The notes under the pieces are model-generated. The model worked only from the letters and a program-made list of their open reading frames with translations. It ran no database searches and was not told where the DNA came from. Shown piece after piece: positions 21,923 to 55,196 of a DNA stretch of 64,000 nucleotides (position 1 is the stretch's first letter; each line of letters begins with the position of its first letter). Origin of the DNA: Larus michahellis. Lineage: Eukaryota > Chordata > Aves > Charadriiformes > Laridae. Location: assembly GCF_964199755.1 (NCBI RefSeq), contig NC_133901.1, forward strand, positions 45,105,418 through 45,169,417. The letters are read 5' to 3'. The position numbers and the translations under genes were made by a program.

Positions 21923-24900
21923 ATGCTGTTCAATCCCTGCCTGCTCTGGAAAACACTATTTTTTGTAAGTTTAGCAGTGCTTCTTGCAGGTAAGATATTG
22001 CTGTTCTTGAATAGGACTAACAATTTTTTAAAGAGTGGCTGTCTTAGAGAAATGAAGTATCCCACTTGGGAACCCAGCCCCGGGTGGACACAAACAGATG
22101 ATCACATTGCTAACTGTTTAGAATAAGTCAATATTTGCCCAGTTTATTCACATTTGATCCTTGGTTGCCTCAGGGATACGAGGTAGCGCTAGGACCGCAG
22201 CATAGTGGCACAACTCCCATAAACAAGTAGCGTTATGCGGTATTTGGGGTTTGCTCATGTGTCGGGAGGGATTATTTACCAGCTATGTACCTGCTGCTCT
22301 TTGTCTTTTAGCTTTTACTGAAATCGGAGCTTTCGCCAGTCCAGACGAATGTGAAAGTGCAACCATAGATGATGTGAATGAGAGTATTGAGGTAAGAGGC
22401 TGGCCCTGCCTTGCAGGCACCTTCCGTGGTGTTGGGGTGGCCCAGCCCCATCTGCCACCGCCCCGGGGTATCGCTCTGCCAGTGCCTGGTGTCAAAGAGA
22501 AGTACATGGAGGGGAGGGGAATGAGATGGAAAGGCACAAAAAGATTAATGTCATTTGACCTGCCATGTACTTGGCCCTGCTACTGAGAGTCAAATTAAGA
22601 AAAAAACACATCCTTATAGATGTATTTTCCAGTTTTGCTTTGCCCCAACTACATAAAGTGGTTTGAACATAAACAGTTACGTCTTTTGCCTTACATGCAT
22701 ATTGTTGTTTTCAATCCCACTTTCAAAAATTAAGTGCTAAATGTTTTAACTACAAATAAAGAGAGTCAACTGAAAGCCTGTGTTTTACGAGTTAGTGCCC
22801 CTGTCTCCTCTATGCTCGGCATATCATAAGGGAGCGACCAGACAGTGACCCTGAACATGGCAGAAATGGTAAAGAACTACCAGGACGAAGCCTATAAAAA
22901 AATTTTGACACATGGTCGAGACAACAGCAATACAGACCTAACAGCTGGAGGTGGGTCCACTATCAACATGCGCTGTGAACTTCTGCCTGGAGCGCCGTCC
23001 TCATCACACGGGGGCAGAAAAAAAGGCTGAGGGCAGCACTTCCCGAGGAGATTTTCTCCCAGCGTTTGACATTTTTTCTCCCCCCGAGACTTGAATTACG
23101 TTATTTTCTTTGTGTGACTGATGCCCATCACCTTCAACAACGTTTCTGTAAGCTTCAGGCTGAGAAGCAGAGTTAGCCGTTGCTGGCTAGTGCTTCAGCA
23201 GCCGCCACCAAAAACTGGACTTGTTTTCTTGCACCTGTGTAAGATCAAAGTAACTGGTGTCTGTTAGGACATTGTGTTTGGTCATGGGGTTTACTACAGC
23301 TCTGCATTGTCCACACATGGTCACACACATATACACACACACAAAGTCTGCAAGATAACAATAACAAACCAATGTTCGGTATAGAAAGATGATACATACT
23401 GTTGTTTACAAAGGCATCTTTTCATATATATAGGAAAAAAAATCCCACCCCCATACCAGTCATCCCTCTTGAACTCAATATAATGGAAAAACCCTACCTA
23501 GCCACTGTTTTCAAAAACATTGTGGGGAAATTAGTGTTACGTAAAGCTATATAATTTTCAAGATGGTTCTTGTTCTGCATTTTTAAAAAGCAAAGGAAAA
23601 AATGTTTGACCACTTTCATAAATTAATTCTAAGGCCTTTTCTCTTCAACTTAGCCTTTTTCTCCCCTAACTCCATAGAAATATTCAAAATGCTTTCATGA
23701 AATGATGACCAAGGGTGAAAAAGCTTCAATCAATTTCCTTGCCTGGAGGCTGCAAGAAGCACTTGATCTCCTGCGCCCTGTTCAAGAGAAATGTGAGGCC
23801 CCTCCTGCACCGATGCTCCTCTTTGCTGGCTGTTGGACAAAGTGGCAGTGGAGAAGCTCTAAGAAAATTTCTTTAAGTGTCTGCATTTCTTGAGGCGGGG
23901 TGGGGGGGGTGGAAATAAGATAAAAGATATGTTAGCAACAAGCCAGAAAGCCAGGGCGTTTAACCACTGTGCTGGCAGGTGTCTGGGAGGCACCAGCGCC
24001 TGGGGTGCCACCATCCTGCAGCCCAGCTGCCGATGCTGAGCAGCAGCCCAGAGCCGCAGGGGGAGCAGGGCTGCTCTGCCCTCCGGCAACTGCTTCCGTG
24101 GTGTCTGCGAACAGGCACTTCAGTCATCGTCTACCAAGCAATTTGGGTAGTTTTTGACACAGTAGTACCGAGTTGGCTGTGCTGCGAATGCAAATACCAC
24201 TTTTAAAGTGTAACTGAGGCTGACAGGGACTCCGTTGTCACAGTAACAAGTGATGGAAAAATTCGGTGTTGCCAAGAAAAACATAAATGGTTTTAAAGAT
24301 GCTTACTTTGACCAAGTCAGCTAGTGGGGGCACTTACCACCCATGCCCAGGTCCTTGAGTATGCCTGTGGTTTGCTTGGGAAGGGGAGACTTGTATACTC
24401 ACTTTCATTCTGATGTGTTGTTTTTTCTTTTTTTCTTTCTTTCTTTCTTTTTTTTTTTTAATCCACTGGGAAGTTTGCAAGCAGCTCCCTCCATGCCCGC
24501 CCCCACCAGCCCCTCGCAATGGCGGGCTGGTGTGTGTCACCATTGGCAATGCTCAGTACTGCAAACCCATGTGCAACAAGGTAATAGTCATGGTTTACTG
24601 CTGCTGTATTGCTGACACCAGTCATTAATTTACAAGTGTTTATTGTGTAATGCATAATTTTCCTTGTTATACTTTTTTCTTTTTCTTTTTTTCTTTTGGG
24701 CAGGGAGAAGTTGTAGTGTTTGTATTGACCTTCACTGGCTGAATGTTTTGTCATCTTACAGTTACCATGATGTAGCCTAAGACAGCGTGTGTTTGTTTTT
24801 TCCCTATTTGTGTTTCCCAAGGGTTATGACTTTCAGTTCCTCAGAAGAAGCAGGCTGTATGAAGTATGTGGCAATGCCACCGGGTTCTCCTGGACAACGC

Positions 24901-25935
24901 AGCTTGTTGGGGGAAAGGCACTGGCTGTTTGTAACCGTGAGTGTTTCTCAGACACATATGGTCGCAGGGACGGGAGGCTCAGTCTGTTAGGTTTAGAAAA
25001 AGGAGGAAAGAAAAGTTTCTCTTTTCTTGGTATATGGGACACTGTGAGAGTGGACAAACTGCCGAACCAGAAATCATGTCAGTTTTAAAATTACCACAAA
25101 GGCCTGGGCTGGTGAGCTTTCAGCTTGGCATAGCAAATATGACATGTATGCAACGTTTGTGGGAAGATGCACTTTTTAAAAAAAAAACAGTAAATAAGTA
25201 TCATCTCACCACAAACCTTACCTTGCACAAGGGCTGTGTGCCCCGCTGGGAAGATCTTGCAACAGTACTTGCAGAACCTCAGCAAAATTGGCCACCACTT
25301 GCACTATTCTGTGCGCGTACATACCATGAAAGCCAGGTGCTGGCCCCCAGCCAGCGCTGCTGCCGTTTTCATGTGGCAGCCCAAGGGTTTTAAGGCTGCT
25401 CCCATTGCGCCCCGTGGACAATCAGTGACCTGAAACAGGCTGTCTGACTCCGTTGTTATTGCCTTAATTTAAAAATAAATGTGTGTATACATACACAAAA
25501 AGGCCAGCCTATCTCTCCTATGGTTAATGGAAAATATTTTACTGTTGACAGTGCCCTGTTGCTAGAGTAGTTGTTTCCCAAGGTTTACCAAAAGCAATCC
25601 TGTAGGCACTTTTACTCCAAGTTGAAGTCTTTAGTCTGGAAAACGAGAATGCCGGCGCTTGTTTAAAGATGAGGACAAAGGTATGCTAATTCAGCTGTTT
25701 TTAGTTAGTTAGTTAGTTTTTGTTGTTGTTATTTTTGATCTTTCCAGCCTCTGAGATCGCCATCAGTGGAGCTGAATCTGCCTATTTCCCTACCAACAGC
25801 ACCTGTTTGCACACACTAGCCTTCACCGAAACTCAGACAGAGCAGCTAAACGTCTTCCTCAAAGAACTTGGTGAGAAAGGCATTGACGGCTCCAACCGTG
25901 ACAAGGAGGCTGATTGTGTCATTTGCGGTTACTAG
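21923..25935 (+). CDS. Small secreted cysteine-rich protein with one sushi/CCP-like module, unrecognised family
   Basis: Five exons join in frame: 21923-21989, 22312-22391, 24482-24580, 24822-24936 and 25748-25935, giving 182 residues. A hydrophobic signal peptide (MLFNPCLLW..., cleavage likely near Ala31) leads to an acidic linker with Cys36. A sushi-like module follows (54-119): CPPPP..NGG, MCNKGYDF, a W at 106 and cysteines at 54, 80, 98 and 119 in the usual 1-3/2-4 places. An extra close pair, Cys67 and Cys76, is unusual for a CCP. The last 60 residues form a separate region with Cys140, Cys177 and Cys180, ending CVICGY. Sequons are N45-E-S, N100-A-T and N137-S-T. The start was chosen because it opens the signal peptide and has A at -3. 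The frame stays open upstream to 21653, so a longer N-terminus is possible. All junctions are GT/AG with compatible phases (1, 0, 0, 1). I cannot name the gene; extracellular binding or innate immunity are only guesses. Confidence 0.75.
24421..24460 (+). repeat. Pyrimidine (CTTT/T)n tract before exon 3 of the sushi-like gene
   Basis: A long T-rich run with CTTT repeats lies just upstream of the acceptor at 24480-24481. It serves as the polypyrimidine tract, and its simple repeat nature makes its length likely to vary. Confidence 0.8.
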
Positions 25936-42842: not shown

Positions 42843-44841
42843 CTAAAACTGACAGACAATAAGGTGATTCTGGTTGCACTTTCTGTCATTCCAAGTGCCA
42901 TCAGTGTACATCTCCACACATTCCTCTTCCCCTTTGCCAGAAGGTTCATGTAAATACCAGTTAGTATAGGTCAGCTGTGTACCATCCAGGAACTGGAATT
43001 TGCTTGGAATTAGAGATTCTTTTATCCCCAGGTAGGCATAGGTGTTAAAACTTTTCACAAAGTACAAAATGGCATCATTCTCGCCTGGGTTCCTTGGAGT
43101 GGCAATAGACCCTCCAGCCTCTTTGCATTTTTTCATTGTAGCATGGAAATCAGCTCTTTTCCCATTGGTAGCAAATATTTTTCCTCCAGATTCTGTTATC
43201 ATCTTTTCCAAGTGGAGGACTGCAAGGTGAGGTAAAAGCCGTTAATATTTATGCATTGTTTTGCGGTCACCTTGCTGCCAATTGTAATTCCTGCTACTTT
43301 CCTACATAACTTCAGATTAAACCCAGGAAAAGGTAAAGGAGAGGACAATTTGAAATGAAAGATAAAAAAAAAGAAAAAAGACAACCACCAAAAGTTAGAA
43401 GAAATCTGAAAAGATGAGGGGAGGTGAAAAAGGGAAGAAACATAGGTATACAGACAATGAAATAGGACAAGAAGAAAAGAGGTTGGAGGAGTGAAGGAAA
43501 TGAGGAATTCTACATTTGGAAAAAGTATATTATTATTTTCTTTGAGACACTGTATAAGCCCTCTGAGATGTTTTGCAGTATACAAGGTTGTATGTCAGTC
43601 CTTGAGTGACTAGGATCTTAGATGTGATCCGGTTGTGATTGTTTTGTTATGTTCATAGCATTCGGTTTGTTTGTCTATTAGGAGTAAGAGGTGCCCATGG
43701 AACTCTTCTGCATAGGCAGGAATTCTAATTGATAAATTTCTGGCTCTCCTGCCAGCTTCAGAGCTGTTACCTAGGTATCTCCCACTAGTTATGAAAAACT
43801 AATTCCCCCCCTTCCATTTGAGAGCTATCACTCTCCTATCTACTAATGATCAAAATAGAAATGAAATGCAATAAAATTGCAGAAAATTCTGGCTTTTTCC
43901 TAAGAAGCCATTTTGTTGTTCATCTTGTTTATGCCCACTAATCCAGCTACAGCAGAAAGTAAAGGCAGGTAAATTACCTCCTTCGAGTCTGGAAATCCGA
44001 TGTTCTAATTGACGGATAACGTCTTCCACTTCATTATCAACCATCGGTAGGAAACCTATGAACAAAAGCAGTTGTTATGCACTTTGCGTTACAGTTTGAA
44101 TCTTGGCTTTCAAGATAAAGCAGAAATAATCGTGTGAAATTAATATGAATTTTTTGAATGTTTATTTGACTCTATTTTAGTTTACTGCTGAGATTTAAAT
44201 TGGGAATATTTTCAGGCATTGATCCTTGGAAGGATAGGGAATACATTGCTGGAAACTACCTGCAGATCAGTGATGTTTATGGAAAATTTGTATTAGCAAA
44301 TTGTTGGTCTTCACTCTATAAGTGAATGAGCCACTCCAGGCAAAACACTGGCATTTGTGCAGTAGGTTTAGTTATTTTTAATTGTGTCTAGGGATTGCTG
44401 ACAGAATCTTTCAGGCTGTTCAAGCACTTGCTTGCAGGTCCAACCTAATGCCTAGCAACAAGTTTCTTGTGTTATGGGAAATGATACCCTTCTTTCTGTG
44501 ACTTGAACCATTGCATCATTAAGCAGGAGACATTTAAGCGTCTTACTTTATACAGGGAATTAATACAGATCTGTTGATTTTCCACCAAGTAGAACCCACA
44601 TCAGATTATACAGCATAGCACTGAGTTTACAAAGCATAAAAATGGAACACAACAGTACATCTGGATGAAAATTGAGACGTTAACTGCATGTACCTGGTAT
44701 AAATCCTTGATCTATCCCATCTTCAGGCAACTGTGCAAAACTGGAGAGTGGAAAACTTCCTGCTGGTTTACCTTGAGCACAGCATGGGAACAGCAAAAAA
44801 GCCACTCCTAAGATTTTGTGGAACAACCGTGGAGACCGCAT
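42843..44841 (-). CDS. SFTPA2: Lung-lectin-like collectin without collagen region (chicken cLL/SFTPA2-like)
   Basis: Three coding exons on the minus strand, 44841-44694, 44055-43978 and 43219-42843, join in phase 1/1 to 603 nt, giving 200 residues. The order is: signal peptide (1 to about 22, ending FPCCA); a short linker without Gly-X-Y triplets (23-50); a heptad-like coiled-coil neck (51-76); and a C-type lectin domain with Cys107, 176, 190 and 198. The Ca-site motifs are EPS (167-169) and WND (185-187). Neck and lectin exons have exactly the lengths (78 and 377 nt) of those in the neighbouring SP-A gene. An upstream in-frame stop just before the ATG fixes the start. Chicken lung lectin is known to lack collagen, which fits. 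It is probably a secreted trimer that binds glycans. The symbol follows chicken usage and does not imply orthology to human SFTPA2. Confidence 0.88.
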
Positions 44842-52735: not shown

Positions 52736-55196
52736 TTAAAATTCACAAATTGTGAGGCGATACAGGTTGCATTTTTTGTCATTCCAGCTCCCATCAGTAT
52801 ACATCTCCACACATTTTTCTGTCCCTTTGCCGTTAGGCTCATATTGGTGCCACTTGGTATAATTCAGAGGCATGCCATTTATATACTTAAATTGACCTGA
52901 AGTCTCACCCTCTTTAATGCCCAAGTAAGCATATTGGTTATACTGTTGCACAATGCTCAAAATAGCTTTATTCTCCTCTTCATTCATGGGACTTGCAATA
53001 GTTCCTCCAGCCTCTTCACAGGATTTTACTGCAGATCCAAAATCCACTTTCTTCCCATTGCTGGCAAATATTTTCTCTCCTACTTCTCTTATTTTCCCAT
53101 TCAAAGCAAGCACTGAAACATGGAAAGAAAAAGCCTAGTTAGCTTTTTTAATTTCTTATGGCATATATTGATGAGGATGCAAAGCAAGAGGAATCAAGAG
53201 ATGTGGAGAAAATTAAAAGTTGTAGGAGGAACAGAGGTCAAGAATGAGAGTAAAGAATGAAGAGGAATAAAGATCTTCAAAATTTTACCAGTTCATGAAG
53301 TATATTGTTGTGCTGTTTGTGACCATCTGTTATCATCTTCTCCAAGACAAGGATGCCCCACTAACATTTGCTACATACACTGTCAGCCCTGTTATATTAA
53401 GTGTAGTCTCTAAAGAGGATCAATCTGCTCCAAATTTGAGCAAGTGAAACAGAAAAATGATAACTTTTGTGAATTCCTTCTCAGTACAAAAACAATTTAC
53501 CGCCTTTAACAATCTGGCTGCTGATAGATAAAAATGCTAGCATAGTGGTGCAAAGCTGAGGAATTCCCAAGAATCCATGTGGAAAGCGCAACATCAGTTA
53601 GAACAATTTTTTTTTTTTAATAACTCAAATTTAAATAAATGCATATTAGTGATCCTGTGAGAAATATGCTTCTCCAGGAAAAGTGAGCCCTGACGCTCCC
53701 CTGCTTTGGATGAGAAAATGGAGTTTTGGGATATAGTACCACTTTCAAGTGAGATTTCTTTCCTGCAAGTCATGACTCTATATTTAATTTTGCCTAGTGC
53801 ACTTAAAACTGATTGTGAGCTGAAAAAGTAAAAATGGGAAAAATTACCGCCTTCAAGTCTGCAAAGTCGGTGTTTCAAATTTACTAAAACATTGTGGAGT
53901 TCAGTGTCCAGCGAATCAGGCAGACCTACAGAGATAAAAACAAAAGTTATACAATCAAGCAAAACTAGGCTGTGTCGATAGGAATAACTCCTTGGATAAA
54001 ACTAATAATTTTCCAAAACTAACTAGCATGCAATCTATTTTTTTAAGATCATCTGGTGTAAAATAAGTATTTTCGCAGTATTTTTCCACACTATTGTTAA
54101 CCTATATTAAAGCAAACAAACAAAAAACTCCAACCCTCTGAAATGCTGACAATGACCCTCTGCACAGAAGAAAATGATTTTTTCTAGTTTGTAGCCTTAT
54201 GTTTATCATGTCTGTGAAAGCAGCTTTGCCACAAAGAATTTGTTTCATTCTAATATTGTTAGTGAAAAGGCACAAGGGAGATTTTGGGGAGGGAACAGTT
54301 TTATGGCACCATGCCATTTTCATTTTTATCTTCTGGGTGGATGCTTTGTGTTTTTTAGTGGGATCTGATTTTAACAGAAACCATAAACACTGGGATAGGA
54401 GGGTTTCTGCATAGATTGTGTGTAATAGAGTCCAGCCAGCTCTGCTTGGTAAAGATGTGAACGCACTGTAAATGTAGATGCTTTTTTCATACTAATTTCC
54501 ATGAGTAACAAAGTCCCACATGTAGAATAAAGTTACTAGTGTGTTCCCATTATTTACAACTAAAACAAATGGCAATGTAGGAGCACAAAATATCACTGCA
54601 TCTCCCTTTCTCCAAGTTGCAATGTTGCAACTCTTACTGCACTTCACAGTCATTAAAATACACATTTGACTCAATAGAGAGAGTCTATTTGACTGACAGA
54701 ACATTACATGGACATCAGCCTCTTTCACATGGTGGTCCAATATCCCCTTTTTCTCCTTTCTCACCTGGCAGATAAGGGAGAATATCTCTTCCAGGAGGCC
54801 CCAACAGGCTTCCAGAGGGTCCTATGAGACCTGGAAAAGATAAGCATAATTTCCTTTCAAATGTATGCATATTCTGGGAGCTTCAGGATGAAACAGAACT
54901 TAATCTCAAACTGGAACGTGTTGTATCTGTGGATAATTTTAGCTGTGCTTTAGCCTTGGTAATGGACCTGGAGAAAGCATTTCTACATTGAAAGAAAATT
55001 ACATAGGGCAAAGTGTGTTCCTCACCAGAATAATTTTTCAGATACCATCTTTGAATACTAGAGGAATGTGCCAGAAGCCTTTTAATTACACTTGTAAATA
55101 CTGGAATAACATTTTCTTCGTACTAAAGAGAAAGAAAAGCTTCTGCTGTGAAAGCAGCAATTCTCTTTGGAAAGTCAATGGAATAGCACAACAAAG

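Follow-up and report, generated by a model that had tools for sequence, protein, structure and literature searches.

The CCP/sushi (SCR) modules of Pfam family PF00084 are characterized by the order of four cysteines (C1 to C4), a Pro and an Asn-Gly after C1, a C-x-x-G-Y motif after C2, a Trp between C3 and C4, and a common fold, and they are typically flanked by phase-1 introns. Known complement regulators use two or more such modules in tandem, the CCPs of C1r and the MASPs occur in proteins with protease, CUB or EGF domains, and IL-15 receptor alpha is a receptor with a membrane anchor and a single sushi domain.

A further system of relevance is the zebrafish gene si:ch1073-126c3.2 (Entrez 555816). 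In excerpts of PMC4829857, its product appears as an uncharacterized plasma protein with a 3.12-fold male bias; its liver mRNA is also male-biased and is lowered in oestradiol- or 11-ketotestosterone-treated males but unchanged in females, and SHBG is likewise male-biased. An excerpt of PMC3547925 ranks the gene 22nd in male zebrafish liver (7303.7 TPM), with complement, plasminogen and apolipoprotein genes as its neighbours in abundance. As far as these excerpts go, the gene therefore encodes a liver-secreted plasma protein in zebrafish.

The window analysed here is a stretch of 64,000 nucleotides from the gull Larus michahellis (contig NC_133901.1), for which an earlier note had proposed an unnamed spliced gene of secreted type on the forward strand at positions 21923-25935. 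This gene is real. When rebuilt from the sequence, it comprises six exons encoding 223 residues (Table 1), 219 of which are identical in P0001, an annotated protein of Rissa tridactyla (LOC128910888), with the runner-up relatives at 88% identity. Such agreement between a reconstructed reading frame and an annotated gull protein is far beyond chance, and 162 family proteins, described below, further corroborate the gene.

Table 1. Features of the gull gene and its surroundings in the window
Feature	Position	Strand	Size (nt)	Borders and phase	Content
Open frame, 278 residues	20180-21013	+			Between the methionine adenosyltransferase gene and the gull gene; no Pfam match
Exon 1	21923-21989	+	67	Donor CAG|GTAAGA, phase 1	Start codon, most of the signal-like stretch
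Exon 2	22312-22391	+	80	Donor GAG|GTAAGA, phase 0	End of the signal region, C36, sequon N45
Exon 3	23678-23792	+	115	Acceptor CCATAG|AAAT; donor AAT|GTGAGG, phase 1	N-terminal helical part, C54; absent from the first model
Pyrimidine tract	24421-24459				Long, directly 5' of exon 4; followed by three AGs (exon starts 24474, 24482, 24485)
Exon 4	24474-24580	+	107	Donor AAG|GTAATA, phase 0	First half of the CCP-like module: C89, C95, C108, C117, C121
Exon 5	24822-24936	+	115	Donor ACC|GTGAGT, phase 1	Second half of the CCP-like module: C139, C160, W147, sequon N141
Exon 6	25748-25935	+	188 (with stop)		C-terminal helical part: sequon N178, C181, C218, C221, stop TAG
ATTAAA	26183-26188	+			First of three candidate polyadenylation signals (others 26346, 26422); motif match only
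Lectin terminal exon	42846-43241	-			C-type lectin, Lectin_C E 4e-21
Lectin terminal exon	52739-53134	-			C-type lectin, Lectin_C E 2.7e-25; nearest in PDB is surfactant protein A
Collagen-like segment	55417-55611	-			Hydrophobic start, then short run PGLPGVPGLPG; no Pfam match

The first model had five exons, four of which are correct. Its third exon (exon 4 here) starts 8 or 11 bases late, because the later two of the three AGs that follow the pyrimidine tract were misleading, and the preceding 115-nt exon was skipped. Since exon 3 ends in phase 1, it is the first AG that lies in phase. The 182-residue product originally proposed, which corresponds to the acceptor at 24482 (that at 24485 would give 181 residues), is thus replaced by one of 223, and its ten mature cysteines by 12. 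That the five-exon product is a genuine separate splice form is very improbable: both later acceptors are in frame and a few bird database models lack the exon-3 residues (P0033, which begins inside an intron), but these residues are present in all 12 aligned birds, P0001 and 11 others, and the form would require exon skipping together with a shifted acceptor, at the cost of C54 and C89. Other features described for the product persist in the rebuilt one, including three sequons, an atypical CCP-like module in which two further cysteines lie close together, the C-terminal end CVICGY, and a hydrophobic N-terminus that resembles a signal peptide and whose residues 1-22 can be aligned with P0001.

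Within the window, the proposed location also holds: the gene is flanked by a methionine adenosyltransferase gene on one side and by SP-A-like lectin genes on the other. Methionine adenosyltransferase exons lie upstream on the forward strand, their PDB matches to the type-1 isoform being narrowly ahead of those to type-2, and two collectin-type genes seem to stand in tandem downstream. The collagen-like segment on the reverse strand may be the first coding exon of the SP-A-like gene ending at 52739, and the open frame upstream of the gull gene is probably chance or 3' untranslated sequence.

Three protein searches (92 of 92, 120 of 151 and 65 of 65 rows listed) gave at least 166 distinct proteins, of which four (P0089-P0092) are unspliced reading frames from bird-like DNA and the remaining 162 listed are family members. 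Sorted by hand from organism names, with fragments and isoforms among them, these comprise 41 proteins from birds, 4 from turtles, 1 from a crocodilian, 27 from amphibians, 70 from ray-finned fish, 12 from sharks and rays, and 7 without an organism name. Six of the last share 69-92% identity with a member from a bird, toad or fish; the seventh, P0140 (213 aa), is about 40% identical to the turtle proteins, falls outside the named groups in the tree and has an altered final CG, and may come from a lungfish or coelacanth. Two members occur in a few species (Bufo, Acipenser, Neogobius). The relatives, including those from fish, align over the whole length with a conserved CCP core and the C-terminal CG, and birds share the cysteine pattern, whose absence from other birds the earlier note had named among its grounds for dropping the gene. 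The family already has database entries, at NCBI as 'uncharacterized' proteins (many birds) and si:ch1073-126c3.2 (many fish), and at UniProt, for some members, as 'Sushi domain-containing protein'. Fish proteins bearing the second name align over their whole length and have the same CCP cysteines, and so belong to the same family; the zebrafish record itself is absent among the matches listed, and the link to the zebrafish gene is the shared name on other fish. The plasma protein described in the excerpt of PMC4829857 accordingly supports the view that the product is secreted.

In an alignment of 163 rows (the 162 family proteins and the window product), C95, C108, C117, C121, C139, C160, C181 and C221 are each present in 159-163 rows, and C36, C54, C89 and C218 vary. 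C36 and C54 are both present in 117 rows, both absent in 16 and discordant in 10, and the corresponding numbers for C89 and C218 are 105, 45 and 7. In a tree of 89 rows, C89 and C218 are each missing from all 18 amphibians and from 5 ray-finned fish. Independent changes on the tree number 4 and 5, and in the three pairs that could be formed C218 on average went with C89 in 1.7, opposite to it in 0.0 and showed no difference in 1.2, which are too few changes for a test. The commonest residue averages a share of 0.73 in the CCP core, 0.34-0.37 in the N-terminal part and 0.49 in the C-terminal part, and the core of 35 birds is on average 88% identical to that of the window product. The sequons at 45, 141 and 178 are found in just 25, 54 and 44 of the 163 rows, respectively.

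The central module carries the CCP pattern. Across 53 rows, C95, C121, C139, C160 and W147 are invariant and G124 and Y125 are conserved in at least 90%, reproducing the C1-C4 order, the Trp and the Gly-Tyr; P and NG after C1 are shared as well, and the module lies between phase-1 introns (introns 3 and 5). Structures predicted for the gull protein and a ray relative consist of a helical N-terminal part, a CCP/sushi-like fold with the extra cysteine pair, and a helical C-terminal part, and their closest structural matches include CCPs of C1r, MASPs, factor H, CD55 and CD46. Profile methods give a different picture: the five-exon product matched no Pfam family, P0001 (98% identical to the six-exon product) had no match to Sushi (PF00084), Sushi is absent among the 25 families listed of 28 matched by 53 members, and a profile-profile comparison with a small profile of 8 CCPs gave a probability of 1.1%. 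Unlike usual PF00084 proteins, the gull protein has the extra pair C108/C117 and a single CCP-like module between two predicted helical parts; it differs from C1r and the MASPs in having no protease, CUB or EGF domain, and from IL-15 receptor alpha, a membrane-anchored receptor with whose sushi domain no sequence relation was found. C95-C139 and C121-C160 would form the canonical CCP disulfides, C108-C117 an additional hairpin pair within the module, and C36-C54 and C181-C221 may pair likewise. A C89-C218 bond would pull the C-terminal part back against the base of the CCP module, making the three parts one compact unit.

Two trees, one of 89 rows (88 chosen members and the window product) and a more careful one of 90 rows, were used to trace the descent of the family through five groups, namely cartilaginous fish, ray-finned fish, amphibians, turtles with the crocodilian, and birds. 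The groups jointly need 4 label changes in either tree, the minimum possible for five groups; taken singly, three need 2 changes in the 89-row tree, and the deep branches are weakly supported. This group-wise arrangement fits one vertically inherited gene. By sequence comparison, the family extends across jawed vertebrates, with mostly one copy per species. No mammal, squamate, lamprey or invertebrate is named among the matches listed (120 of 151 in one search; clusters by their representatives). Together with vertical descent, this points to separate losses in the mammal and squamate lines, at the level of protein databases and from searches run without a positive control. The suggestion of a sushi-like, vertebrate-wide gene lost in mammals thus gains support, the mammalian loss at that database level only.

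Overall, we consider it probable that the gull gene represents, in birds, an old vertebrate family encoding a liver-secreted plasma protein. The CCP sheet bears a nearly invariant, basic stretch, YCKPMCN-GYDF-FLRRSRLYE, whose conservation suggests a putative binding site; the gull protein would circulate and bind a partner through this face, and, by analogy with zebrafish, liver expression and a similar control by sex hormones may apply to birds. A fuller version is about as likely as not. In it, the protein would go back to the ancestor of jawed vertebrates as a plasma protein whose helical N-terminal part, six-cysteine CCP and helical C-terminal part are clamped by disulfides into a single unit of a new type; its conserved basic CCP face would serve a function in blood that sharks, fish, frogs, turtles, crocodilians and birds have retained and that the mammal and squamate lines lost independently.

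A more specific role as a regulator of complement or the lectin pathway, in which a one-CCP plasma protein binds C3b/C4b or a collectin-associated protease, is unlikely, even though complement CCPs are among the closest structural matches, the zebrafish relative is of liver and plasma origin in the partial sources, and downstream, at distances of about 17 and 27 kb, there are SP-A-like collectin genes. The single module is at odds with the tandem arrangement of complement regulators, and neither a shared fold nor nearness to collectins in one window is informative on function. Slightly less credit is given to the idea that a steroid-responsive or reproduction-linked carrier is concerned, with male bias as its main biology. 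The bias in zebrafish plasma and liver, the lowering by oestradiol in males and the similar bias of SHBG agree with it; however, in the same excerpts 11-ketotestosterone also lowers the male level and leaves females unaffected, so that the gene is not simply androgen-driven, and the sex bias is recorded in one species only. Least favoured of these, and improbable, is a cytokine-related role, either as a soluble binder that resembles the one sushi domain of IL-15R-alpha or as a helical cytokine carried by a sushi domain of its own. Sushi domains of the cytokine-receptor type rank below complement CCPs in structural comparison, and the barely probed helical parts yielded no cytokine fold. It would also be uncommon for a cytokine or decoy receptor to be among the top 25 transcripts of zebrafish liver, as the relative is in the available excerpt.

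If the favoured interpretation, a liver-secreted plasma protein of old vertebrate descent, is correct, most vertebrates would have a blood protein, abundant at least in zebrafish liver, that people and mice lack, and this would account for its still having no name. It would also raise the question of what partner the strongly conserved CCP face binds and what has replaced it in mammals and squamates, and the former could be put to trial in zebrafish and chicken.
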